Positions 31,910-52,088 of a DNA stretch of 54,127 nt are shown piece after piece (position 1 is the first letter of the stretch; each line of letters opens with the position of its first letter). This stretch comes from Planctomycetaceae bacterium. GTDB taxonomy: Bacteria; Planctomycetota; Planctomycetia; Pirellulales; PALSA-1355. The stretch is from NCBI GenBank assembly GCA_003153375.1, contig PLYM01000261.1, positions 59,828 to 113,954 on the forward strand, written 5' to 3'. A model generated the notes under the pieces. That model was not told where the DNA came from, did not search any database, and saw only the letters and a program-made list of their open reading frames with translations. A program made the translations under genes and the position numbers.

Positions 31910-34150
31910 TTAGAGCTTGAAGTTGAACGTGCGGATCAGATAGCGCCAGACGCGCTGGCCGAGGGGTTGCCAGTTGGCCGATATTTTGGCGGTGCCTCGC
32001 AGACCCTGGATGAGCCGGCCGTCGGGATCCTCGATCGCGGCCAAGGCCTGGAACGTGGTGTTCAGCGGACGCTCCATGCCCGACTCGTCCTGCTTGCTCA
32101 TCAATTCGCCGCCGGCCTTGCTCGACAGGTGGCGCGGCGAAACCTTGATCTCGGGACCGATCTCGCCGATCTGGGTGTGGAAGGAGCGATACGGCATTTC
32201 GTCGAGCTTGACCGTCACCGGCTGGCCGATCTGCACGAAGTCGATGTCGTCCTGATCGATCGCGATGTGCGCTTCCCATTCGTGCGGGTTGCCGATTTCG
32301 CAGAACAGACGCATGTCGCCGGCCATGTAGGCGCCGAGGTTCTTTTCCTCCAGCGGGCTACCCGACCAGCGGGGCAGGTCGCCGCCATTGCTCGGGCGCG
32401 CCGGCACTTCCGGCGGCGGCAGCACCGTGCCGGCCACGGGCGCTACCAACTCCAGCCGCTTGAAGTCTTCCTGCTTGTGCTTGAGTTGAATTCTCAGCGA
32501 CTCGAGCGACTTGGTCACTTCCGGCAGCTCGAGCGCGGCCCCGCGGTCCTTCAACGAGAACTGGGCCTTTTTCAGGGTCTCGATTTTGACTTCGTTCTTC
32601 TTGATCTGCGATTCGATCTCTCGGATGTCATAAGCCAGATCGAGGTTGACGAGCTGGCCCAGCGTTTCGCCGGCCGCGACCTGTTGGCCGGGTTTGACGA
32701 CGATCTTTTCGAGGGTGCCCGGCACCTCGGCGTAGACGGGCGAGGCATTGCGCGGCTTGAGTTCCAGGGTACACAGCACCCGATAGGGCAGCGGGCAGAA
32801 CGTGATGAAAAGCGCGGCCACGGCCAAAATGCTCAATGTGATATTGACGTTCTTGCGTTTCACTTGATCGAGCCTTCCGGGGACGTAGAAGAATTTTCCC
32901 ACCTTGTACAAGGGCATGGCCACGAGGCTCGTGATCGAGATCACGGCCAGCGTCTGGCTAACGACCTTCAGGCCGTACGGTTCGAACACCTTGTACAAGA
33001 ACCAGATAATTCCAAACAAAATGAGCCAGCGGTAGATGGCCGCCGCGATCGTAAAGCAGGCGAAGAAAATCTGGTTGCGCTGGGGCAGAAACGGGTCTTC
33101 GGGCTGCTCGAGGCCCAGGCACCAGGTGCCCAACTTGCGATTGAGAATCGTGGTCGACTTCTGCCGCAGGTTGGGAATCTCCATCAGGTCGGAAAGGATG
33201 TAGTAGCCGTCGTAGCGCAGCAGCGGGTTGGCGTTGAACATCACGGTGCTGACCGAGCAGATGAACATCGTGCTCAAGCACAACTGGTGCAGCAAGCCGG
33301 GCTCGCTGAACCACCACAGGAACGTGCAGATCGAGGCGATGACGATTTCGATGTACATGCCCGCCGCGCCAATATAGGCGCGGTGCCACTTGTTGGGCAG
33401 CATCCAGGAATCCGAAACGTTGCAATACAGGCAGGGCGTCATCACGAGAAACATCACGCCCATCTCGTGGCACTCGCCGCCAAAATGTTTGCACGTCAAT
33501 CCATGACCGAACTCGTGGATCACCTTGGTGACGGCCAGCGTGGCGCCCAGGTAGATCCAGTTCTTGGCCTCGAAGAACTGATGGAACGTGGGCAGCTTGT
33601 TGTGGAACTGATCGAACTGCACCAGCACCAGCGACAACGCGGCCAGGGCCAGCACGGCGCAGACGAACCGCGCCGGACCGCCATAGATCCAGCGCATCTT
33701 CGGATATAGCCACTCGAGCAGGTTGTTCGGGTCGATGCCCTTGAAACGCATCGCCAGGATGTTCGAGAGCGAAGCGAGAACCTCTTTCCTCCGTTTCTCG
33801 CCGCGCCGCTTCTTGAGCTGCACCCCCTGCCCCGACACGTTGGCGATGACCAGGCCGTTGCCGTGCAACATGCCGACGAACTGGCCCAGTTCCTCGACCG
33901 TGATCTTCTGGGGCGGAAACAGCTTCTCGAACTCGATTTTGATCTCGTCGAGACTCGTCTGGCCGTCGAGCATCTTGAGGATCGCGTACTCTTCCTCTTG
34001 AAAGCGGAAGTAGTGCAGGCCGACCGGTTCCTTGACGACCCAATACAGCTGACCGAGATAGCGGTGCTGCAGCGCGGTCAGATCCGGGCGCATCCGCATC
34101 GGAAGCTGCCGCGCGGAGCTGGAAACCAGACTGTCGGCCAACGTGACCAT
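31910..34150 (-). CDS. PqqD-like / M50 site-2 protease / HlyD-adaptor fusion
   Basis: A 746-residue protein in three parts. Residues about 22-110 look like a PqqD-type winged helix (RPDLTALQHRYLGQLYWVVK ... YAILKMLDGQTSLDEI), a fold used for peptide recognition in RiPP pathways. Residues about 155-450 are a polytopic M50 metalloprotease with the zinc site KVIHEFGHGL (HEFGH 212-216) and the late NPLLRYDGYYIL motif carrying the third ligand aspartate. Residues about 465-745 form a biotinyl-lipoyl/HlyD-type adaptor with a helical hairpin. It is the last gene of a three-gene minus-strand operon with two other adaptor genes. ATG 34150 is used. No ABC or RND transporter is adjacent. Confidence 0.85.
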   Translation of the reverse strand: MVTLADSLVSSSARQLPMRMRPDLTALQHRYLGQLYWVVKEPVGLHYFRFQEEEYAILKMLDGQTSLDEIKIEFEKLFPPQKITVEELGQFVGMLHGNGLVIANVSGQGVQLKKRRGEKRRKEVLASLSNILAMRFKGIDPNNLLEWLYPKMRWIYGGPARFVCAVLALAALSLVLVQFDQFHNKLPTFHQFFEAKNWIYLGATLAVTKVIHEFGHGLTCKHFGGECHEMGVMFLVMTPCLYCNVSDSWMLPNKWHRAYIGAAGMYIEIVIASICTFLWWFSEPGLLHQLCLSTMFICSVSTVMFNANPLLRYDGYYILSDLMEIPNLRQKSTTILNRKLGTWCLGLEQPEDPFLPQRNQIFFACFTIAAAIYRWLILFGIIWFLYKVFEPYGLKVVSQTLAVISITSLVAMPLYKVGKFFYVPGRLDQVKRKNVNITLSILAVAALFITFCPLPYRVLCTLELKPRNASPVYAEVPGTLEKIVVKPGQQVAAGETLGQLVNLDLAYDIREIESQIKKNEVKIETLKKAQFSLKDRGAALELPEVTKSLESLRIQLKHKQEDFKRLELVAPVAGTVLPPPEVPARPSNGGDLPRWSGSPLEEKNLGAYMAGDMRLFCEIGNPHEWEAHIAIDQDDIDFVQIGQPVTVKLDEMPYRSFHTQIGEIGPEIKVSPRHLSSKAGGELMSKQDESGMERPLNTTFQALAAIEDPDGRLIQGLRGTAKISANWQPLGQRVWRYLIRTFNFKL

Positions 34151-34213
34151 CAAGAGGACTCAGCTTTGAGGTTGCCGCCCGAGCGACGCAGCGATGCGCG
34201 TTAGCTCTCGGCG

Positions 34214-35164
34214 TTAATTTCTTTCAGGCGTTTTGCGTGGGCCGGCCAAGGGACGGGGCGTGGGCTCGGCGGCCTGGTCGATGTGAATCGTCATGTTGGC
34301 CTTCAGGCCGGCGCGGACCAGCAGTTGGTTGTTCTCCAACGGGCTCTCGATTTCGGCCGTGACCGGCAACAATCCGCCTTCGACCACCGGGCTGACATAG
34401 ACGATGTTGCCCGTTACCTTTTCGACGCGGCCGCGCGGCAGCATGACTTCGACGGTGACCTTGCGGCCTTCGATGTCGCCTGGGCCCCAATCGGCGGCGT
34501 CGAGATTGCCGCTCACGCGCAACCGATCGACGCGCACGATTTGCATCACCGGATCGCCGGGGGATACCCACTCGCCGACGTGGCGATAGATCTTGTTGAC
34601 GTAGCCATCGAACGGCGCGTGCAGAACGCGGCGATCGACCCCGACCTGGGCGGCGCCGACCTCGGCCTTCTTGGCTTCGGCGGTCAATTTGTTCGAAGCA
34701 TTTTCCTGCGTGGCTTTGACCGTTCCCAGCACAGCCTTGCGATATTCGAGCTCGGCCCGCAGGACTTCAATTTCCGATACCGCGCGGGCCTGGCCGCGGT
34801 TGGCCTCAATCAGCCTTTCCCAGGCCTTCTTGGCCACTTCCGCCGTGACCTTATTGAAGTCGATGTTCACCTTGCTGTCGGCTTCTTGTTGCGCGACTTC
34901 GTAATCCTTTTGCTTGACAGTCAATTGGGCTTGCGCCTCGCGATCGTCGACGCGTGCCACCTCGGCGTCTTTCGTGACGCGGGTGCCTTCCTTGGCGTTG
35001 ACTTTCACCAGTACCCCAGGGTCCGAGGCCGGCACGGCCTGATCTTCGATCGAACTGACTTCGCAGTCGAGGATGACGGCCTCGCGGGGCGCGGCTTCGT
35101 TGGGTGGGGCCACCTTGGGCGCCAGAACCAGGGCCAGCGTCACGAGCAGGTGTGTCGAGAACAT
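34214..35164 (-). CDS. HlyD-family periplasmic adaptor
   Basis: A 316-residue exported protein with a signal peptide (MFSTHLLVTLALVLAPKVA). It has the lipoyl half-motif GVLVKVNAKEGTRVTKDAEV, a long alpha-helical hairpin (about 85-155, coiled-coil), the second half-motif VLHAPFDGYVNKIYRHVGEW, and beta-barrel segments (GNIVYVSPVVEGGLL). This is the standard membrane-fusion-protein order. It lies between the M50-fusion and GAF-adaptor genes (63 and 75 bases), so it probably works with both. ATG 35164 was chosen because it begins the signal peptide and follows GAGAGAGG. Confidence 0.87.
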   Translation of the reverse strand: MFSTHLLVTLALVLAPKVAPPNEAAPREAVILDCEVSSIEDQAVPASDPGVLVKVNAKEGTRVTKDAEVARVDDREAQAQLTVKQKDYEVAQQEADSKVNIDFNKVTAEVAKKAWERLIEANRGQARAVSEIEVLRAELEYRKAVLGTVKATQENASNKLTAEAKKAEVGAAQVGVDRRVLHAPFDGYVNKIYRHVGEWVSPGDPVMQIVRVDRLRVSGNLDAADWGPGDIEGRKVTVEVMLPRGRVEKVTGNIVYVSPVVEGGLLPVTAEIESPLENNQLLVRAGLKANMTIHIDQAAEPTPRPLAGPRKTPERN

Positions 35165-35239
35165 GCGATATACCTCTCTCTCAAAGGGATGAATTCCGTT
35201 TGCCATCCGCGCGGGCCCGACCCCGCGCCCGATGGGTCC

Positions 35240-37255
35240 TTAGAAAATCCTGAACAGGACCTTCGACTGAATGAACGAGAACAAGTCGTGGAACCAGACG
35301 TATCCGATCGGGGCTCGGCCGCAATTCACCTTGGCCGTCACCACGGCGCCGCTGCGACGGTCGGGAACGTCGTTCTTGTCGATGGCCACCCGCAGCAGCA
35401 CGGTATTGCCCTCTTCGCCGCGGACTTCGGCCGTCTGGTGAATTTCCTTCACGGTGCCGATGTGCGTGACGCCGGGATTCGTGGCCGTGATGTATTTAAC
35501 CGTCAGCTTGCCGTCGAACTTGCTCAAGGCATCGTTGATGAAGCCCATGCGGTCTTCACCCATGGTCACTTCCAACTCCCAGTCGCCGGCCGGTTCTTCG
35601 ACGGTCATCATCAATTGACCGAGCTGCACCGGACGCATGATCAACAGGTTGTGTACATCCCAGGTCGTGATTTGTCCGTCGACGGGGCTGGTGATCGTCA
35701 ATTGCTTTTGCTTGTATTCGAGCAGCTTGAGCTGATCGTTGAAGCTCTTGTGTTCCTCGATGAAGGTCTTTTGCTCGCCCAGCAGCCGGGCGCGGTCACT
35801 TGGATCGAGCCGCGGATCAGCCAACCGGGTTCTGACCGAGTTCTTTTTTTCCAGGGCCGCGTCGCGCTGGCCACGCATGGCCGTGATCTTGCCGTCCAAT
35901 TCGAAGCTCTGCATCCGCGCCAGCAGTTGCCCCTTCTTGACCATCTCGCCGTGCCTGACGGGCACGTCGACGACGTCGCCGTCGAGCTTCGAGAACACCT
36001 GCCGACGGACGACCGGCAGCAGCTTGCCCTTGCCCGAGAGTTCGAAATCGCTGGGCCACAGGCAGAGAATCAACCCGACCAGGAGCAATGCGATCGAGAT
36101 CGAAATCGTCCAGGGAAGCTGGCGGGCTTCGACCACCCATTTCGATTTGCCGATCGCGCGCCACACCGGCATCAGGAACAGCTCGTTGTGTTCCATCACG
36201 TTCGCCAGCGCGATCGAGCTGTGGTCGGCCACGACGTCGACGCGCTGCAGCAACCCTTCGCGGGGGCGGCTGTCTTCGATCTGTTCGATCACCAGCGCGC
36301 CCAAGACGCGCGGCGTCTCCAACGGATTCTGCGGATCGTGCGGTTCCTTGAGCGGCACGATGGCCACGGCTTTCGAATGGACTTCGTCGACGTAGTTCTG
36401 CACTGCTTCTTCGACCTGCGGAGCCATCATCGACGTGTCGCCGGTGTACCACACGGTCTCTCCCGTCGCGACCACGGCCGTGGCAAGTTGGGTCAACAGC
36501 TGCACGGTGTTCGATCGCTTGTCGAACGTGTCCTGGCCGCTGACGGCTTCGATGACGCATTTGCGGCCGCGATTGATGGCCACGCTGACACGGTCGCACT
36601 CGATCAGCCGGCGAGCCTCGTTGGCAATCGTGTAGGCCGTGCCCCGCTCGTCGAGACCCTTGTGTACCACGCGGGTGAAACTCTCGAGCTGGGCCCACAG
36701 GGCCTGGCGATCCGAATAGTGTTGCAGCTTGCGCGACTTGAGATACTCGCTGGCCAACTCGCACATTTGCACGAGAAACCGCAGATAGCCGCGTTGCACC
36801 GAGGGGTTGCTGCCCGGGCGCTGAAAGATCTCCAAGACGCCGGCCGTTTCGTTGGCCGTCTTCAGCGGACCCATCACGAGCAGGAAATCGGTGGGGTTGC
36901 TGCCCTCTTCGGCATTGCCCGAGCCCGAATGTGGGGCCATCAACAGGCCCTCGCCGCTCGTGATCACCTTCCGCAGCAGCTTGCCATGCCGCACCTGGTC
37001 GTCTTCACTCTGGTCGAGCCGCGTTTCGCGGAGATTGATTTGATATTCGAGGGCCAGTTGACCCGATTCGCTGACCGTCCACACCGCTCCGCCGATCGCG
37101 GCCAAGGCCGTCACGACGCGATTGAGCACGGCGTCATAGAACTCTTGGGGGCTAATCTCGGACTTGGAGATCTGGGCGATTTCGCGCACCAGATTGCGAA
37201 TCTGCTGCTTTGTCTGTTCGACAAGTTCCGGATCGACGGACTGTTCAGTGCTCAT
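35240..37255 (-). CDS. GAF-GAF-TM-HlyD adaptor protein
   Basis: A 671-residue protein. Residues about 35-170 and 195-355 form two GAF-like domains (LNRVVTALAAIGGAVWTV; TGETVWYTGDTSMMAPQV; VAIVPLKEP; RVLGALVIEQIED; DVVADHSSIALANVM). One membrane helix lies at 381-400. The part after it is an HlyD-type adaptor: FSKLDGDVVDVPVRHGEMVK, a helical hairpin, then ITSPVDGQITTWDV. This places two sensor domains in the cytoplasm and an adaptor outside, in one chain. It is the first gene of the operon with the HlyD and PqqD-M50 genes, with a possible TATAAT box about 220 bases upstream. Confidence 0.85.
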   Translation of the reverse strand: MSTEQSVDPELVEQTKQQIRNLVREIAQISKSEISPQEFYDAVLNRVVTALAAIGGAVWTVSESGQLALEYQINLRETRLDQSEDDQVRHGKLLRKVITSGEGLLMAPHSGSGNAEEGSNPTDFLLVMGPLKTANETAGVLEIFQRPGSNPSVQRGYLRFLVQMCELASEYLKSRKLQHYSDRQALWAQLESFTRVVHKGLDERGTAYTIANEARRLIECDRVSVAINRGRKCVIEAVSGQDTFDKRSNTVQLLTQLATAVVATGETVWYTGDTSMMAPQVEEAVQNYVDEVHSKAVAIVPLKEPHDPQNPLETPRVLGALVIEQIEDSRPREGLLQRVDVVADHSSIALANVMEHNELFLMPVWRAIGKSKWVVEARQLPWTISISIALLLVGLILCLWPSDFELSGKGKLLPVVRRQVFSKLDGDVVDVPVRHGEMVKKGQLLARMQSFELDGKITAMRGQRDAALEKKNSVRTRLADPRLDPSDRARLLGEQKTFIEEHKSFNDQLKLLEYKQKQLTITSPVDGQITTWDVHNLLIMRPVQLGQLMMTVEEPAGDWELEVTMGEDRMGFINDALSKFDGKLTVKYITATNPGVTHIGTVKEIHQTAEVRGEEGNTVLLRVAIDKNDVPDRRSGAVVTAKVNCGRAPIGYVWFHDLFSFIQSKVLFRIF

Positions 37256-44207: not shown

Positions 44208-47200
44208 ATGAGTCGGGGGCAGCGGTACACTTTTCATCCAGGCAAAAACCCGTTGTCACGCGATCGCAAGCGTCGCAAGAACTCTCTCTCCCGCCGGCTC
44301 GCGGCCGAGTGTCTCGAAGAGCGGCGGATGCTCTATGGCTTGAGCACGGGGTCGGGCGATGGCAGCCTCAATATCGCGGTCGATGGTTACGGTTCTTTCG
44401 GCAGCGCCGTGGGCGGCACCCAGGCGGGCGAAGCGATCTACGACCCCGTGGGACCCATTCAGGCTGCCAGCACGACGTTCGAATCGGGGGTCGCCATTCG
44501 CTTTGGAACCTCCGGGGCCCGGCAGTTTCTCACCTCGGGCAACATCGGTTCATCGACCAGTCTGGGCGACGTGGCAATCAGCGGCACGTCCACTTCGGCC
44601 AACAGCACCTTTACCTACAACACGCTGAATTTCCAATTGCTGCAAACCGTCGCTCCGATGAGCAATAGTTCCGGCGTGCAGACCGGATCGGTGTTGGGCC
44701 AGTCGTACGAGATCACCAACACCAGCAGCGGGCCCGTGGAATTCGAGTTAGTACGTTATCTGGACGGCGATTTGCTGTTCGATGGCTCGCTCGTCGATGG
44801 CGGCGGCCGAACCACCTTGGCCAACAGTGAGTTCCTTTTCGAAACCGACGCGGGCGGAACCGGCACGACCAGTACGACCTTCGTTGGCATCGACACGAGC
44901 GGCGGCACGGTCGAAGCCTCGGATCGGTACGAAATCGATGCGTATCCCTTGCTCGAGGAACGCGTGATCGCCGGCAACCCGTTGGCCAACCACATCACGG
45001 GCGACAACAACGGCGACGGATTCGTCGACGCGGGCCAAGAATACGACGTCACCTTGGCGTTTCGCACCGTGTATACCTTGGCGGCGGGGCAGTCGGCGTT
45101 CTATTCCACGCGCACCGTTTTCGGCTCGGGCAATCCGGGTGACGTGAACATTGCGATTCCGACCGTCTCGGCTCCGGACGTCGCGCAGTTGGAGGGTGAC
45201 AGCGGGACGACCCCCTTCGTCTTTCCCGTGACCCTTTCCCGTGCTCCGCTCTCGCCGGTAACCGTCGTTTATGCCACGCAAGACGTCACCGCGACCGCCG
45301 GAGTCGATTATCAACCGACCAGCGGCACGCTGACCTTCTTACCCGATGGCGGCCTGACGCAGTTGGTCACGGTCGAGGCGTTCGGCGATCTGACGCCCGA
45401 GCAGGACGAAACGTTTCTGTTGGCGTTCCCGGAAGTGACGGGCGGAATCACGGATCGGCCGGGGGCCATTGGCACGATCGTCAACGATGACGTCGAGCTT
45501 TCGATCAACGACATCAGCATTGTCGAGGGAAACAGCGGCACCCGCAACGCCGTGTTCACGATCACCGCGGCCGGTCAAACCTCGCGACCCGTCTCGGTCA
45601 ACTATGCCACCGTCGACGTCACGACTTCTGGTTCAAGCGACTATCTGCCTCGTGGCGGCACGATTACCATGCCGGCGGGAACGAACTCAGCGACCGTGAC
45701 GGTTCCGATCGTCGGCGACACGCTGAGCGAGCTGACCGAGACGTTCGACGTCGTGTTGAGCAATCCGGTCAACGCCCGGATCGCCAAGGGAATCGGCGTC
45801 GGCACGATTTTGGATGACGATGCGTTGCCCTTGCTGTATGTCAACGACGTGCAGATTACGACCGATGATGCTCAGGCGCTAACGGCCGTCTTCACGGTCG
45901 CTCTCGACAGGCCGAGCGGCACGACGGTAACCGTCGCGTATACCACGGTCGACGGCACGGCTCACGCGGGCACGGACTACACCGCGGAGAGCAATACGCT
46001 GGTCTTTCCCATCGGGGTCGCTTCGCTGCAAGTCACGGTGCCGGTCACGACGCCGTCGGTGTACACGGCGAACGAGGGCTTTTATTTGCAGATTTCCAAT
46101 CCCTCGGCGGCCATCCTCGGCGATCCGCTGGGCCAGGCGACGTTCGTCTACTCGACTCCGCCGGTCGGCAATTACATCATCGACGACGGCGGGCCGGGCT
46201 TCTCGCAGACAACCGGTTGGACCACGCTCACCAACACCCTGGCCTATCAACTCGACTACACCTATCACGCCGCGGGCAACGGCAGCGGACACTCCGACTG
46301 GACGTTCACGGATTTGCCGCTGGGTTCTTACCAGGTGTTCACCAAGTGGATTCCGTTCGTCAATCGGGCCACCAACGCGCCGTACTCGATTTACGATGGG
46401 CCCACGCCGCTGGCCACGGTGCGCGTCAATCAACAAGTCATGCCAGCCGGCGATGAATCCGACGGCGTCCTCTGGCAGCCGCTGGGAACCTGGAGCACGA
46501 CGACCGGCATGCTCAACGTGCGCTTGAACGACAACGCCAACGGCTATGTTGTCGGCGACGCGGTGCGGCTGGTGCTCAATGGTATTGCCCCGCAACAGCC
46601 CGAAATGAACGTGGACGGGTTTGGCGTCTCGATTCCGACCGGCGACACGTTGCCGGCCGATGCCGATGGCACGTCGTTCGGCACCGTGCTGGCCACCACC
46701 GACTCGTCGACCGAGACCTTCATGATCAGGAACAACGGCAACGCGCCGTTGCACCTGGATGGCGCCCCGCGTGTCGCGATCAGCGGCGCCAACCCGCAAG
46801 ATTTCCGCGTGGTCACGCAGCCGGCCTCGACCGTGAACCCCGGCGAGTCGACTACCTTTACGATGATCTTCCATCCGATGACCACGGGCTTGCGCCAGGC
46901 CGAGGTGTCGATCGCCAACGACGACACCGACGAGCATCCTTACACCTTTGCGATTCAAGGCGTGGGCACCAACGGTGACGATGGCCTGGGCGCCGGAGTG
47001 TTGGGCGGCGCCACCACGACGTCGGCGATCGCCCCGCTGCACAATTCCAGTTTGCCGATGGACGTCAGTGGCGACGGAGCCGTCTCAGCCGTCGATGCGC
47101 TGATCTTGATTCAAGACCTTAGGGCGCCGGCGCTGGACGGCTCGGCAAACTATTATATGGACGTCAACGGCGACGGAGCGGTCTCGCCTCTCGACTTGTT

Positions 47201-47552
47201 GACGGTCGTCGATTATCTGAAGTCCGCCGGACCGCAGTCCCAGGCCACGCCCACCGCCCAAGCCTCGGCCGCGGTGGCGAGCCCGGCGGCCTCCTCGGCG
47301 AGTGTCGCGGCGGCTAGCGTCGTAACGGCCAATGTCGTGACTGGAAATGTCGTCACGGCCGCGGCCAATGGTCAAACCGTGGCATTGCCGGCCGGATTGC
47401 CAGCCTCGGCTGTCGATCAGGCGATGAGCCAGTTGTCGGCTGCCACGCGCACGGTCGCCAAGGCCGTGAGTCCCCCAATCGTCGTCACCCCGATCAAGAA
47501 GAGCACCCCCGCCAGCCGCGTTACCCCCGGGTTGGATTCGCTAGATGGCTGA
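44208..47552 (+). CDS. Modular surface protein with Calx-beta, golvesin-like and dockerin domains
   Basis: A 1114-residue protein. Residues about 27-43 (LSRRLAAECLEERRML) are the planctomycete LEPR-XLL-type export motif, not a classical signal peptide. Residues about 45-310 are unassigned. Three Calx-beta repeats follow (about 315-430, 430-545, 545-650; for example SIVEGNSGTRNAVFTI and GTILDDDALP). Residues about 653-791 form a golvesin/xanthan-lyase-like sugar-binding domain (RATNAPYSIYDGPTPLATV), then a choice-of-anchor-D-type Ig-like domain (about 798-920) and a type I dockerin with two calcium loops (DVSGDGAVSAVDALIL; DVNGDGAVSPLDLLTV). The tail is Ala/Ser/Val-rich. It is probably secreted and calcium-dependent. 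It is tandem with a related gene. Confidence 0.85.
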   Translation: MSRGQRYTFHPGKNPLSRDRKRRKNSLSRRLAAECLEERRMLYGLSTGSGDGSLNIAVDGYGSFGSAVGGTQAGEAIYDPVGPIQAASTTFESGVAIRFGTSGARQFLTSGNIGSSTSLGDVAISGTSTSANSTFTYNTLNFQLLQTVAPMSNSSGVQTGSVLGQSYEITNTSSGPVEFELVRYLDGDLLFDGSLVDGGGRTTLANSEFLFETDAGGTGTTSTTFVGIDTSGGTVEASDRYEIDAYPLLEERVIAGNPLANHITGDNNGDGFVDAGQEYDVTLAFRTVYTLAAGQSAFYSTRTVFGSGNPGDVNIAIPTVSAPDVAQLEGDSGTTPFVFPVTLSRAPLSPVTVVYATQDVTATAGVDYQPTSGTLTFLPDGGLTQLVTVEAFGDLTPEQDETFLLAFPEVTGGITDRPGAIGTIVNDDVELSINDISIVEGNSGTRNAVFTITAAGQTSRPVSVNYATVDVTTSGSSDYLPRGGTITMPAGTNSATVTVPIVGDTLSELTETFDVVLSNPVNARIAKGIGVGTILDDDALPLLYVNDVQITTDDAQALTAVFTVALDRPSGTTVTVAYTTVDGTAHAGTDYTAESNTLVFPIGVASLQVTVPVTTPSVYTANEGFYLQISNPSAAILGDPLGQATFVYSTPPVGNYIIDDGGPGFSQTTGWTTLTNTLAYQLDYTYHAAGNGSGHSDWTFTDLPLGSYQVFTKWIPFVNRATNAPYSIYDGPTPLATVRVNQQVMPAGDESDGVLWQPLGTWSTTTGMLNVRLNDNANGYVVGDAVRLVLNGIAPQQPEMNVDGFGVSIPTGDTLPADADGTSFGTVLATTDSSTETFMIRNNGNAPLHLDGAPRVAISGANPQDFRVVTQPASTVNPGESTTFTMIFHPMTTGLRQAEVSIANDDTDEHPYTFAIQGVGTNGDDGLGAGVLGGATTTSAIAPLHNSSLPMDVSGDGAVSAVDALILIQDLRAPALDGSANYYMDVNGDGAVSPLDLLTVVDYLKSAGPQSQATPTAQASAAVASPAASSASVAAASVVTANVVTGNVVTAAANGQTVALPAGLPASAVDQAMSQLSAATRTVAKAVSPPIVVTPIKKSTPASRVTPGLDSLDG

Positions 47553-47729
47553 TTTAACTTGGAAAGCGCCTCTGGTTGCGGCCCTCTGACGGCCCAATTA
47601 GTATTGGCAGGGGCTTGTTTGCGCCGTTTCTCCTTGACTCGCGTGGTGCGAGGTCATTGCCCACCCGGAACATTGCAATGCGGCGGACCGCTGCCCGGTT
47701 CCGCGGCCGTTTTCTCCCAAGGCTTTTCC

Positions 47730-50700
47730 ATGGCGTATCGAAGATCGCATCGTCGAGACAGTTGTGTCTCGTCTCGCAGCTTACGGCGCGGCCGCCTTGC
47801 GATTGAAGACCTGGAAGATCGGCGTCTGCTGAGCGCCGCGCCGGGCACGTGGACCAACCTGACCAACCAAATTCCCGATCCAGGCGGCGCGCAAACCATG
47901 CAGTTGCTGTCCGATGGCACGGTCATGGTTCAGGGAGGAAACAACGAAGCCTCAAAACGTTGGTACCAACTTAAGCCGAACGTCAGTGGGAGCTACGTGA
48001 ATGGCTCCTGGTCGCAGCTTGCCTCGATGAACCTGCAGCGGTTGTTTGCGCCGGCAGCGGTTCTGCCCAGCGGCAAGGTCCTCATCATGGGCGGCGAATA
48101 TTCAGGGCCGAATACCGACTCGAACTTTACCAACACGGGCGAGATTTACGACCCGGTTGCCAACTCGTGGACGAGCATCACCAACTTCCCCCAGGCTCAA
48201 TTCGGCGATGACCCCATTGAAGTGTTACCCGACGGGCGTGTCCTGGCCGGATATCTCTCGGGGCCGCAGACATATATCTATGATCCCGCATCGAATAGTT
48301 GGTCGCAGACGGGCACGAAGTTGCTGGGAGATGCCAGCGATGAGGAGACCTGGGTCAAACTGCCCGACGGGAGCATCTTGTCGTACAACGTCTTTTCGAG
48401 TTCGGCGACAGCAGCGCATGCGCAACGATACATTCCCTCCACGGGAACGTGGGTGGACGCCGGAATCCTTCCGTCTGAATTGAGCAGCGACGCGGTAGGC
48501 AGTGAACTAGGCCCGGCATTCTTGGTGCCCGATGGAAGGGCCTTCTTCCTCGGCGGCAATGGCGCTACTGCGTTCTACACCCCGTCCACGAATACTTGGG
48601 CGGCCGGGCCCGCAATCCCGGGCGGTTTCGTTGCTGCCGACGCCCCCGGCGCGATGCTTCCAAACGGCGACGTGCTGTTTGCCGCCTCGCCTCTGGGCAC
48701 CATCGGTTCCGATGGTGCCTATACGTTTCCCGCACCATCAAAGATCTTCGAATTTGACCCGGTTGCGGGCACATATACGGATGTCACGCCATCGGATCTC
48801 GTGAATACGAATTCCGACTTTCTAATCATGCTGGTTCTGCCCACCGGACAGGTCATGTTGACCACCGAAACGCACCAGATCGAGATCTATACGCCGACTG
48901 GCTCGCCCAACGATGCCTGGCGGCCGACGATCACGAATATCACGAGCGACGGGACGACGTATACGCTCACCGGTACGCAACTCAACGGCATCTCGGAAGG
49001 CGCGACGTTCGGAGATGATGATGAGATGGCGAGCAACTATCCGATCGTGCGACTTCGCAATCAGGCGGGGACCATCTTCTACGCGCGGACATTCAACTGG
49101 AGCAGCACGGGCGTGGCCACGGGTAGCACGCCGGTGTCGGTGCAATTCACCCTGCCGCCGGGACTCCTCCCAGGCAGCTACGGCGTGACGGTCATTGCCA
49201 ACGGGATTGCATCGACGGAGCTCCAGGTCAATCTGGGCGATTTCGACGTCACCAATGTGACGCAGTTCGAAGGCGACGCGGGCTTTACGAATTTTGTCTT
49301 CACGATTTCTCAGCCGGCCAGTATCAACACGAGCACGGTCGCCTACACCACGGCCGATGGTTCAGCCCAGGCCGGCAGCGACTATGTCGCTCAGACCGGC
49401 ATCTTGACCTTCGCGCCGGGCAACACGTCGCAGCAGGTCACGGTTCAAGTGCTGGGCGATACGGTCGTCGAGTCGGATGAGAATTTCTTTCTCAAGCTGT
49501 TTGATCCGCAGCACCCGGAAATCGCTCGCGGCAGCGGGGTCGGCACGATCCTGAACGATGACGTTGACCTGACGGTTACCGACGTCAGCGCGTTGCAGCT
49601 CACCTCCGGAACCACCACGGCCGTATTCACGATCTCGGCCGTGGGCACCGTGCCCTACAACGTGGTGGTTAACTTTGGCACGGTCAACGATACCGCGTTT
49701 GCCGGGGTCGATTACCTGCCCACCAGCGGTATCGTGACCTTCGCGCCGGGAGGAGGATCGGTCAACGTTACGGTGCCGATTCTCAGCAGGGCGCTCTATC
49801 ACTCCCCGGAGACCTTCTTCGTCCAGCTAACGAATTCGGCGGTCAGTGCCGCCAACCCGATCAACGGCCATCTCACGAAGGGGGTCGGCGTCGGCACGAT
49901 TACGAACGTCAATCAGCCGCCCGAGTTCTACGTGAACGACGTTCACGTCACGGCCGCTCAGGCCGGACCCGCCAATGCGGTCTTCACCGTGGCCCTCGAC
50001 AAAGTCAGCGGCGACACCACCTACGTGCAATATGCGACCGCCGACGGCACCGCTCAGGCCGGCGTGAACTACTCTGCCGAGAGCAATACGCTGACCTTCG
50101 CGCCCGGCGTCACGTCGATGCTGGTCACCGTGCCGGTGATGACCAATGGCGTGTATACGCCCGACGAGCAGTTCTTCCTGAACTTGTTCAATCCCGTGCA
50201 CGCCGAGATCACCGATCCGCAGGGCATGGCCACGATCATCTTCGGCACGCCGCCCCCGGCCGAACGGATCGTCGACGACGGCGACGCCGCCTATGGCGAG
50301 ACCAACGGCTGGACCAACTTCACCAACACGCTGGCCTATCAGCTCGATGCCGAGCAACACCCCGCGGGCGATGGCAGCGGCTTTGCCGATTGGACGTTCA
50401 CGGGCCTGCCCGCGGGAAACTATGAGGTGTTTGCCAAGTGGATTCCATTTTCGAATCGGGCCACGAATGCTCCTTATACGATCTATGATGGCGCCACGCC
50501 CTTGGCCACGGTGCGCGTGAATCAGCAGGTCATGCCCAGCGGCGACCAGTCGAATGGCGTCGTCTGGCAGAGCCTGGGCACGTTCAACGAGTTCACCGGC
50601 AAGCTGACGGTGCGGCTGAACGACAACGCCAATGGAATGGTCGTGGCCGATGCGATTCGCGTGGTCAGCGGCGGCATTGGCTCGCAGGCACCGCAAATGG

Positions 50701-52088
50701 ACGTCTCGGGAAGCGGTCAGTCGATCGCCGACTCGACGGTCGGTCCCGCCGCGGCGGCTACATTCGGCAACGGCACCGATTTTGGCGGTGTCGCGGCCTT
50801 CAGCAGTTCGTTCATCAACACCTTCACGATCACGAACACGGGCAATGCCGACTTACTGTTGACCGGCGCTCCGCGGGTCAGCATCTCGGGCGCGAATGCC
50901 AGCGACTTCACCGTCGTCTCGCAACCCCCCTCGACGATCGCGGCTGGCGCGAGCGCGACGTTCCAGGTGATGTTCCATCCGGGCGCCGTGGGAGAGCGGA
51001 CGGCTGTGTTGTCGATTCCCGACAACGATCCGACCCAAGCTCCTTACACATTCAACATTGCCGGCACTGGGACCGCTGCCGGACCGAGCCAACTGGTGGT
51101 CGACGATTCGGGTGGCGGCTTCCAGGCTGCGGGCGGCTGGGCCACGAATGCCAACACGCTGGCCTATCAGGGCGAGCTGCGATCCGACGCCGCCGGCCAA
51201 GGCGCGGATCACGCGACGTGGGCTTTTTCCGATCTGGCGCCGGGAAACTACACCGTCTATACCACCTGGGTGCCGTTCCAAAACCGCGCCACCAACGCGC
51301 CCTTCACGATCATGGACGGCGGCACTTCGCGCGGCACGGTGCTAGTCAACGAGCAACAGAACCCAGCCGATGTCTCGTATGGTGGGGTGATGTGGAAGGC
51401 ACTTTCCACGCTGAACGTGGCCAGCGGCACGCTGAGCGTGAACCTGAACAACCAGGCCAACGGTTATGTGATTGCCGACGCGGTCTACCTGGTTCACAAC
51501 GACCTGCCCAGCGCCGTGGCGACCACGACGAACACGGGCACGGCGGGCGCCGGCACAACGTCGTCCAGCGGCAACACCTCGTCGACGGGCACGACGTCTT
51601 CGACCACCAACAGCGTGGGCGGCGGTTCGTCGCTTTTGGGCGGAACGACGATTCACAACGCCGCCAATCCGCTGGACGTCAATGGCGACGGCGCCGTTTC
51701 GGCCTTGGACGCGCTGATCCTGATCGATCACCTTTTGGCTCCCACGCCTGACACGTCGACGGCTTATTTCATGGACGTAAACGGAGACGGCGCGATCTCG
51801 CCCGCCGACTTATTGGCGGTAATCAACTTCCTGCACACCCCCGGGCCGCAATCCGCGGTGGCCACTTCGCAGGCCGCGGCGGCTGCCGACGCGGCGATCG
51901 GACAGTTGGTCGCCACGCCCGCGGCGGCCACGGCTGCCGTCAGCAGCGCCGCCACGGTCAGCAGTGTCGCCACCAACAGCAACGCGGCCACGAACGGGGC
52001 CCTGATGCAGGCCGCCGCCATCACGGTGGCCAAGAAGAGCACGAGCTCGGCCGACTCCGGCTCGCAGGTCGATCCGCTGGCGGGCTAG
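47730..52088 (+). CDS. Modular surface protein with Kelch-like, Calx-beta, golvesin-like and dockerin domains
   Basis: A 1452-residue protein beginning with the export motif LAIEDLEDRRLLSAAPG (about residues 23-39). Residues about 40-390 contain Kelch/galactose-oxidase-like propeller repeats (LPSGKVLIMGGEYSG, LPDGRVLAGYLSGPQTYIYD, VPDGRAFFLGGNGATAFYTP). Then a TIG-like domain (about 397-503), three Calx-beta repeats (about 505-843), golvesin-like domain 1 (about 843-980), anchor-D-like domain (about 987-1113), golvesin-like domain 2 (about 1120-1257), a Thr/Ser linker, and a type I dockerin (about 1313-1370). ATG 47730 is chosen; the frame upstream to 47559 lacks the motif. Large parts match the preceding protein, so the pair arose by duplication and shuffling. 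Confidence 0.83.
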   Translation: MAYRRSHRRDSCVSSRSLRRGRLAIEDLEDRRLLSAAPGTWTNLTNQIPDPGGAQTMQLLSDGTVMVQGGNNEASKRWYQLKPNVSGSYVNGSWSQLASMNLQRLFAPAAVLPSGKVLIMGGEYSGPNTDSNFTNTGEIYDPVANSWTSITNFPQAQFGDDPIEVLPDGRVLAGYLSGPQTYIYDPASNSWSQTGTKLLGDASDEETWVKLPDGSILSYNVFSSSATAAHAQRYIPSTGTWVDAGILPSELSSDAVGSELGPAFLVPDGRAFFLGGNGATAFYTPSTNTWAAGPAIPGGFVAADAPGAMLPNGDVLFAASPLGTIGSDGAYTFPAPSKIFEFDPVAGTYTDVTPSDLVNTNSDFLIMLVLPTGQVMLTTETHQIEIYTPTGSPNDAWRPTITNITSDGTTYTLTGTQLNGISEGATFGDDDEMASNYPIVRLRNQAGTIFYARTFNWSSTGVATGSTPVSVQFTLPPGLLPGSYGVTVIANGIASTELQVNLGDFDVTNVTQFEGDAGFTNFVFTISQPASINTSTVAYTTADGSAQAGSDYVAQTGILTFAPGNTSQQVTVQVLGDTVVESDENFFLKLFDPQHPEIARGSGVGTILNDDVDLTVTDVSALQLTSGTTTAVFTISAVGTVPYNVVVNFGTVNDTAFAGVDYLPTSGIVTFAPGGGSVNVTVPILSRALYHSPETFFVQLTNSAVSAANPINGHLTKGVGVGTITNVNQPPEFYVNDVHVTAAQAGPANAVFTVALDKVSGDTTYVQYATADGTAQAGVNYSAESNTLTFAPGVTSMLVTVPVMTNGVYTPDEQFFLNLFNPVHAEITDPQGMATIIFGTPPPAERIVDDGDAAYGETNGWTNFTNTLAYQLDAEQHPAGDGSGFADWTFTGLPAGNYEVFAKWIPFSNRATNAPYTIYDGATPLATVRVNQQVMPSGDQSNGVVWQSLGTFNEFTGKLTVRLNDNANGMVVADAIRVVSGGIGSQAPQMDVSGSGQSIADSTVGPAAAATFGNGTDFGGVAAFSSSFINTFTITNTGNADLLLTGAPRVSISGANASDFTVVSQPPSTIAAGASATFQVMFHPGAVGERTAVLSIPDNDPTQAPYTFNIAGTGTAAGPSQLVVDDSGGGFQAAGGWATNANTLAYQGELRSDAAGQGADHATWAFSDLAPGNYTVYTTWVPFQNRATNAPFTIMDGGTSRGTVLVNEQQNPADVSYGGVMWKALSTLNVASGTLSVNLNNQANGYVIADAVYLVHNDLPSAVATTTNTGTAGAGTTSSSGNTSSTGTTSSTTNSVGGGSSLLGGTTIHNAANPLDVNGDGAVSALDALILIDHLLAPTPDTSTAYFMDVNGDGAISPADLLAVINFLHTPGPQSAVATSQAAAAADAAIGQLVATPAAATAAVSSAATVSSVATNSNAATNGALMQAAAITVAKKSTSSADSGSQVDPLAG

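Follow-up and report, generated by a model that had tools for sequence, protein, structure and literature searches.

The three minus-strand genes described here probably encode the inner-membrane and periplasmic core of a secretion machine that resembles type I secretion, works without an ABC transporter, and has as its cargo giant surface proteins tagged at the N-terminus by an LExR-xLL motif. They lie in a window of 54,127 nucleotides (the whole stretch of DNA that was analysed) from a Planctomycetaceae bacterium, and they belong to the secondary SecA_DEAD, type-I-related module of Kamneva, Poudel and Ward (2015; PMC4452313), in which secondary SecA_DEAD proteins are encoded beside GAF-HlyD, HlyD and M50 genes, with no ABC transporter. 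These authors proposed that SecA is the motor and M50 the membrane part; they named neither cargo nor tag, and called the biological role of the module "completely unknown". The tag has a separate history: it has been recognised since 2004 (Studholme et al. 2004, as cited in PMC8567305), and a proteomic study of Tuwongella regarded the motif RRLxxExLExRxLLA, carried by 8 of the 10 longest proteins, as a likely novel N-terminal export signal (PMC8567305). No export machine for the LEPR-XLL/PF07595 tag is named in PMC4452313 or PMC8567305, and in the text of the latter the terms HlyD, M50 and type I secretion do not occur. Planctomycetes have unusually many giant proteins and a tag that has been on record for all those years without a known exporter; joining the tag to the SecA/HlyD/M50 module offers a testable answer to both puzzles. 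The module and the tag are each known separately, and the link between them appears to be new: no paper joining the two was found in the open-access literature searched (subscription papers may exist).

Table 1. Coordinates in the window of the operon, of the parts of gene 3, and of two candidate clients.
Feature	Position	Strand	Basis or remark
Gene 1, GAF-GAF-TM-HlyD adaptor, 671 aa	35240..37255	-	Pfam and AlphaFold model
Gene 2, soluble HlyD/RND-type adaptor with N-terminal hydrophobic signal	34214..35164	-	Pfam HlyD_3
Gene 3, RRE(PqqD)-M50-TM-HlyD fusion protein, 746 aa	31910..34150	-	Pfam Peptidase_M50 and HlyD
Gene 3, RRE/PqqD-like predicted leader-binding domain, residues 17-105	33839..34105	-	VIA-align to RRE proteins
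Gene 3, HEFGH zinc site, residues 213-217	33503..33517	-	Invariance in 63 homologues
Gene 3, site-2-protease membrane core, residues 195-390	32984..33571	-	VIA-align to RseP
Gene 3, C-terminal MacA-like periplasmic adaptor, residues 454-738	31940..32794	-	Alignment to MacA
Candidate client 1, exoprotein, Calx-beta, Golvesin_C, dockerin, N-terminal ...RRLAAECLEERRML	44208..47552	+	Motif only; outside operon
Candidate client 2, exoprotein, N-terminal ...RGRLAIEDLEDRRLLSA	47559..52088	+	PF07595 site 47784-47843; outside operon

Architecture and conservation of the operon

A first-pass annotation, made from the sequence, had described three minus-strand genes separated by gaps of 63 and 75 bases, each encoding an adaptor segment, and these genes, their domains and their coordinates were all verified by sequence and Pfam searches. 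The three genes begin with ATG at 37255, 35164 and 34150, which leaves 75 bases between genes 1 and 2 and 63 bases between genes 2 and 3; a longer frame from 35206 is an alternative for gene 2, and a TTG start at 34153 would extend the product of gene 3 to 747 aa. HlyD-type Pfam matches are present in all three products. Gene 1 matches GAF_3 (residues 35-170), GAF (206-350), Biotin_lipoyl_2 (419-447) and HlyD_3 (520-629), with a single transmembrane helix placed at about residues 380-400 on the basis of sequence and model. From the AlphaFold model (pLDDT 88), the tandem GAF domains are predicted to be cytosolic and to be followed by the transmembrane helix and a periplasmic lipoyl/hairpin/barrel adaptor; in relatives this gene is kept upstream of the HlyD and M50-HlyD genes. 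Gene 2 matches HlyD_3 with an E-value of 6.9e-17, scores 78.8 bits against TIGR01730 (under the cut-off of 94.9), and has a signal hydropathy of 2.2.

The model of the gene 3 product (mean pLDDT 88.8, from a 55-sequence alignment) consists of three parts, and in Pfam the protein matches Peptidase_M50 together with HlyD_D23/HlyD_3. The sequence match to a PqqD-like domain is weak (TIGR03859, E 0.043). In structure alignments with VIA-align the N-terminal part has the winged-helix fold of RRE/PqqD domains, superposing on lasso-peptide RRE proteins with bound leader (5v1v, 5v1u and 6jx3; Z 9.8, 9.7 and 9.6), and the membrane core superposes on E. coli RseP (7w6x; Z 9.8); the C-terminal part aligns to MacA of the MacAB-TolC pump (9qgy; Z 17.5, rmsd 5.2 over 229 residues), with the proviso for all these comparisons that middling Z values can be common and that function does not follow from a shared fold. 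A second zinc motif (N307/P310/D315) lies downstream of HEFGH, and both the HExxH and the NxxP/D motifs of M50 site-2 proteases are found within the membrane core. Gene 3 is expected to encode a working protease, because the residues of the zinc site (H213, E214, H217, N307, P310 and D315) are invariant in 63 homologues, including those of E. coli, Kosakonia and other Alpha- and Gammaproteobacteria. The RRE alignment and the invariant catalytic residues bear out the earlier assignment of a PqqD fold of the peptide-recognising type joined to an intact M50 protease.

The M50-HlyD gene was found in 55 of 57 order-level relatives, mostly from different families of one order, at identities of up to 74%, and in 46 of 196 genomes in a profile search evenly sampled over the phylum. 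The order GAF-HlyD, HlyD, M50-HlyD is kept in nearly all loci of the main copy with covering contigs and recurs across Planctomycetota: the conserved gene order on which the first-pass annotation had staked its reading is retained. This genome carries a second copy of the operon on contig C147, which would be dedicated to the PKD-rich protein linked to it. A third, divergent M50-HlyD copy on contig C12 (L034:7149-9458) stands alone, with neither GAF nor HlyD partners of its own, about 4 kb from a protein with the motif LEDRRLLA.

The genes flanking the window operon that were tested with Pfam encode DUF748, Lar_N/DUF362, a glycosyltransferase, an amino-acid permease and a metallo-beta-lactamase fold; there is no efflux pump, outer-membrane channel, ABC exporter or RiPP modifying enzyme among them. 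Three of these genes were considered as parts of the operon and rejected as core parts because their linkage in relatives is rare or inconsistent: the downstream DUF748 (AsmA-like) gene recurs in a few relatives only (cluster c8), and the permease and glycosyltransferase genes are inconsistently linked.

Tagged giant proteins and M50-HlyD genes

The proteobacterial loci, which are plasmid records retrieved solely by M50-HlyD similarity, contain operons in which a giant gene (reaching 48.7 kb in Variovorax) is followed, in some cases after a DUF3467 gene, by adaptors and M50-HlyD; most also include SecA-like genes, TolC genes or both. For two of the giants the annotation reads LEPR-XLL protein, and an N-terminal LExR-xLL tag is present in all 12 giant neighbours with a readable N-terminus (E. 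coli, Kosakonia, Methylosinus, Alisedimentitalea, Pseudosulfitobacter, Pontibrevibacter, Thalassospira, Azospirillum, Burkholderia, Mesorhizobium, Variovorax and Cupriavidus), a count that leaves aside Azospirillum TSA2s, Magnetospirillum and two records that are truncated at the beginning. Examples are LESRQLFDGA in E. coli and LEPRLLLSAD in Mesorhizobium; in Alisedimentitalea the tag precedes the annotated start by a short distance, in the same frame. The Phyllobacterium locus, whose neighbour has no tag, counts against the association.

Among planctomycetes, a tagged ORF is present in 12 of the 22 paralogue loci, as compared with 3 of the 40 control windows (Fisher p 7e-5), the controls being taken from the same or related genomes at partly random and partly hand-picked coordinates. 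For the copy in the window the putative cargo link is limited to homology and co-occurrence, because its own orthologue group shows no enrichment of tagged neighbours (1 of 17 loci). As regards co-occurrence, the curated LEPR family NF012209 scores over its cut-off in 20 of the 196 genomes, and 19 of these have M50-HlyD (46 of 196 overall; p 6e-13); the corresponding figures are 12 of 13 in the other classes only (p 9e-10) and 11 of 11 at the level of families, versus 23 of about 69 families (p 7e-7), where the family total was estimated from the genome list and kinship was treated up to family level. Two results count against the link: one genome (G187) has an above-cut-off LEPR match without M50-HlyD, and M50-HlyD is absent from 3 (G194, G104, G145) of the 11 genomes in which the older and noisier Pfam motif PF07595 is matched at about E 0.005 or better. 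When tag-positive genomes without M50-HlyD were searched again with a broader profile, essentially plain adaptor matches were all that emerged. Weak PF07595 matches (E up to 0.05) were also tried as a co-occurrence marker and discarded for their noise, since M50-HlyD is present in 19 of the 40 genomes. On the whole, these sequence comparisons make it fairly probable that the module exports LExR-xLL giants.

Two candidate clients are encoded in the window (Table 1), with the tag cores LEERRML in the first and LEDRRLLSA in the second. The PF07595 match of the second (G000:C10:107611-107670) scores 26.9 bits in the genome search, above the cut-off of 25.5, but 20.6 bits when the ORF is run through hmmscan. 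Both exoproteins, which are paralogues in tandem, have LExRR tags as well as Calx-beta, Golvesin_C and choice-of-anchor D domains, and the dockerin near their C-terminus is notable in a planctomycete surface protein.

The SecA-like ATPase and the choice between readings

The operon had been characterized as lacking a pump or channel gene next to it. Locally this holds for the flanks tested, and no SecA-like gene lies beside the operon either; as a description of the system, "without a pump" is misleading, since a SecA-like ATPase gene forms part of related operons and this genome has one elsewhere. The SecA-like gene is found directly upstream of the triplet in several orthologous loci (L047, L101-L103, L110, L114, L133 and L153), and the SecA-linked forms mostly cluster inside the main clade (in a quick tree with many weak branches). 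The ATPase of this genome (contig C133; 654 aa) shares 51% identity with its operon-linked counterpart in L060; its domains are SecA_DEAD, PP_bind and P-loop only. Short SecA-like ATPases, defined as frames under about 750 aa and excluding an ambiguous contig-end fragment in G185, occur in at least 27 of the 196 genomes, all 27 of which encode M50-HlyD as well (Fisher p 4e-21; at the level of families 12 of 12, p 1.5e-7); judging from coordinates, the M50-HlyD gene lies less than 10 kb from the short SecA-like gene in 15 of the 27. OEP genes are present in this genome on contigs C147 and C81, and several planctomycete paralogue loci have a linked OEP/TolC gene.

These components suggest a mechanism in which the cytosolic RRE of gene 3 would bind the arginine-rich LExR-xLL leader, the truncated SecA-like ATPase, encoded elsewhere, would feed the unfolded chain and supply the energy, and the M50 site would trim the leader within the membrane. 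The MacA-like, HlyD and GAF-HlyD adaptors would form the conduit to a TolC-type channel, with the tandem GAF domains gating or regulating it. The copy in the window may then act as a general exporter for many scattered tagged proteins, two of which would be those of the window. The role of the RRE as tag receptor is a tentative assignment, about which we are slightly more doubtful than confident, and the existence of SecA-less operons in E. coli, Burkholderia and Variovorax counts against the scheme, as energy may come from another source there.

The same SecA-less operons favour a different machine for giant proteins, in which the tag would pass through canonical SecA-SecYEG and M50 would merely be a quality-control or release protease at a periplasmic conduit; enzymes of the RseP type are indeed often quality-control proteases. 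This reading is unlikely, considering that the tag is not built like a Sec signal: its region is arginine-rich, with a peak 12-residue hydropathy of 0.07-1.80 and hence no Sec-like hydrophobic core, whereas the peak is 2.2-3.0 in five of six signal controls (Sec or lipoprotein) and 1.66 in the sixth. Moreover, in a domain search the SecA-like partner did not match the C-terminal region of canonical SecA, which contacts SecY, and the RRE domain would be left without a role.

The first-pass annotation itself had envisaged a RiPP-like device, in which the PqqD domain and the M50 protease cut a small modified peptide and the adaptors, possibly as one mixed ring, export it. The export device stands in so far as its abundance of adaptors, PqqD fold, M50 protease and conserved order are concerned, but the small-peptide cargo does not, and we regard the RiPP-like device as very improbable. 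RiPP leader-binding proteins share the RRE fold, and the PqqD/M50 half of gene 3 matches the daptide and epipeptide proteases; the scores, however, are well under the equivalog cut-offs, both for the daptide M50 model NF041824 (E 5.9e-51 and 173.8 bits over residues 30-408, cut-off 300) and for the epipeptide (YydH/LiaK) protease model (47.6, cut-off 225), and gene 3 differs from these proteases by its fused C-terminal adaptor and by the absence of RiPP enzymes among the flanking genes tested. No RiPP enzyme is annotated in the proteobacterial operons, as none was found beside that of the window; paralogues and proteobacterial homologues adjoin instead TolC genes and giant LExR-xLL exoproteins, the giant tagged protein being the conserved proteobacterial neighbour. 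Marginally less credible still is a small-molecule efflux or envelope-stress adaptor system that shares its loci with adhesins by coincidence or co-regulation: HlyD/MacA-type adaptors do mostly serve efflux pumps and the window copy has no linked cargo, but there is no ABC, MFS or RND gene in the homologous operons, planctomycete paralogues and three classes of Proteobacteria both show cargo linkage, and the co-occurrence with the tag and the SecA-like ATPase is phylum-wide.

The proposed ABC-less machine for tagged giants can be set against several known systems. It shares with the module of Kamneva et al. the combination of GAF-HlyD, HlyD and M50-HlyD, a truncated SecA-like ATPase in the same genome and the absence of a linked ABC gene, but in this genome the SecA-like gene is unlinked, and the RRE fold and the link to LExR-xLL are additions of the present analysis. 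With the LEPR-XLL family (NF012209) and the Planctomycete extracellular motif (PF07595, Planc_extracel) it shares the tag, which is carried by linked giant genes elsewhere and probably by the window candidates. Like type I secretion (HlyB-HlyD-TolC) it has adaptors in the operon, a TolC-type channel (encoded elsewhere here, linked in paralogues) and giant repeat-rich cargo; unlike type I secretion it has no ABC exporter among the window neighbours tested or among the genes annotated in the homologous proteobacterial operons, its putative signal is N-terminal rather than C-terminal (N-termini being what we examined), an RRE and an intramembrane protease are joined to one adaptor, and there are three adaptor types. 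Finally, the folds of MacA and RseP recur in the adaptor and in the protease core of gene 3, but there the two are joined in one protein, and a MacB partner was not seen. It is conceivable, although we would say so with more reserve than for the tag receptor, that this is a distinct secretion class, SecA-like-driven and GAF-gated, extending from planctomycetes to E. coli plasmids and neither ABC type I nor plain Sec, in which the RRE-protease-adaptor would be receptor, signal peptidase and conduit subunit at once. Such a system would suggest that RiPP-style leader recognition has been recruited for protein secretion, and the related proteobacterial operons, including those of E. coli, offer tractable hosts.

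Other genes and carriers of the related loci

One E. coli plasmid (L166/L187, NZ_CP081687.1) has genes for a giant, Ig-like tagged protein, M50-HlyD, two adaptors and TolC. Among 5426 complete E. coli genomes, 24 (about 0.4%) contain the M50 gene, and 21 of its 25 places are on plasmids. In alphaproteobacterial loci (L161, L164, L165, L168, L194 and L201) the gene for a DUF3467 protein (about 100 aa) lies between the giant gene and the adaptors, with only its position before the adaptors visible in L201; the protein is possibly a chaperone or an extra subunit.

Among planctomycetes, a ClpB-like AAA ATPase (L061:2644-5325 and L062:2223-4919) is encoded next to two paralogue operons, each of which includes a tagged giant gene as well. 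A short protein (cluster c6) is encoded convergently to M50-HlyD in OEP-linked copies (L033:12389-13105, L053:10244-11320, L054:7514-8362 and others); it has a conserved C-terminal RPLYFExxxxERYG region and no Pfam match. Very large proteins of cluster c14 adjoin the operon or the giant cargo (L053:15744-19001, L063:10762-16725 and L064:15195-19001), and the copy in L063 combines a protein kinase domain with WD40-type repeats.
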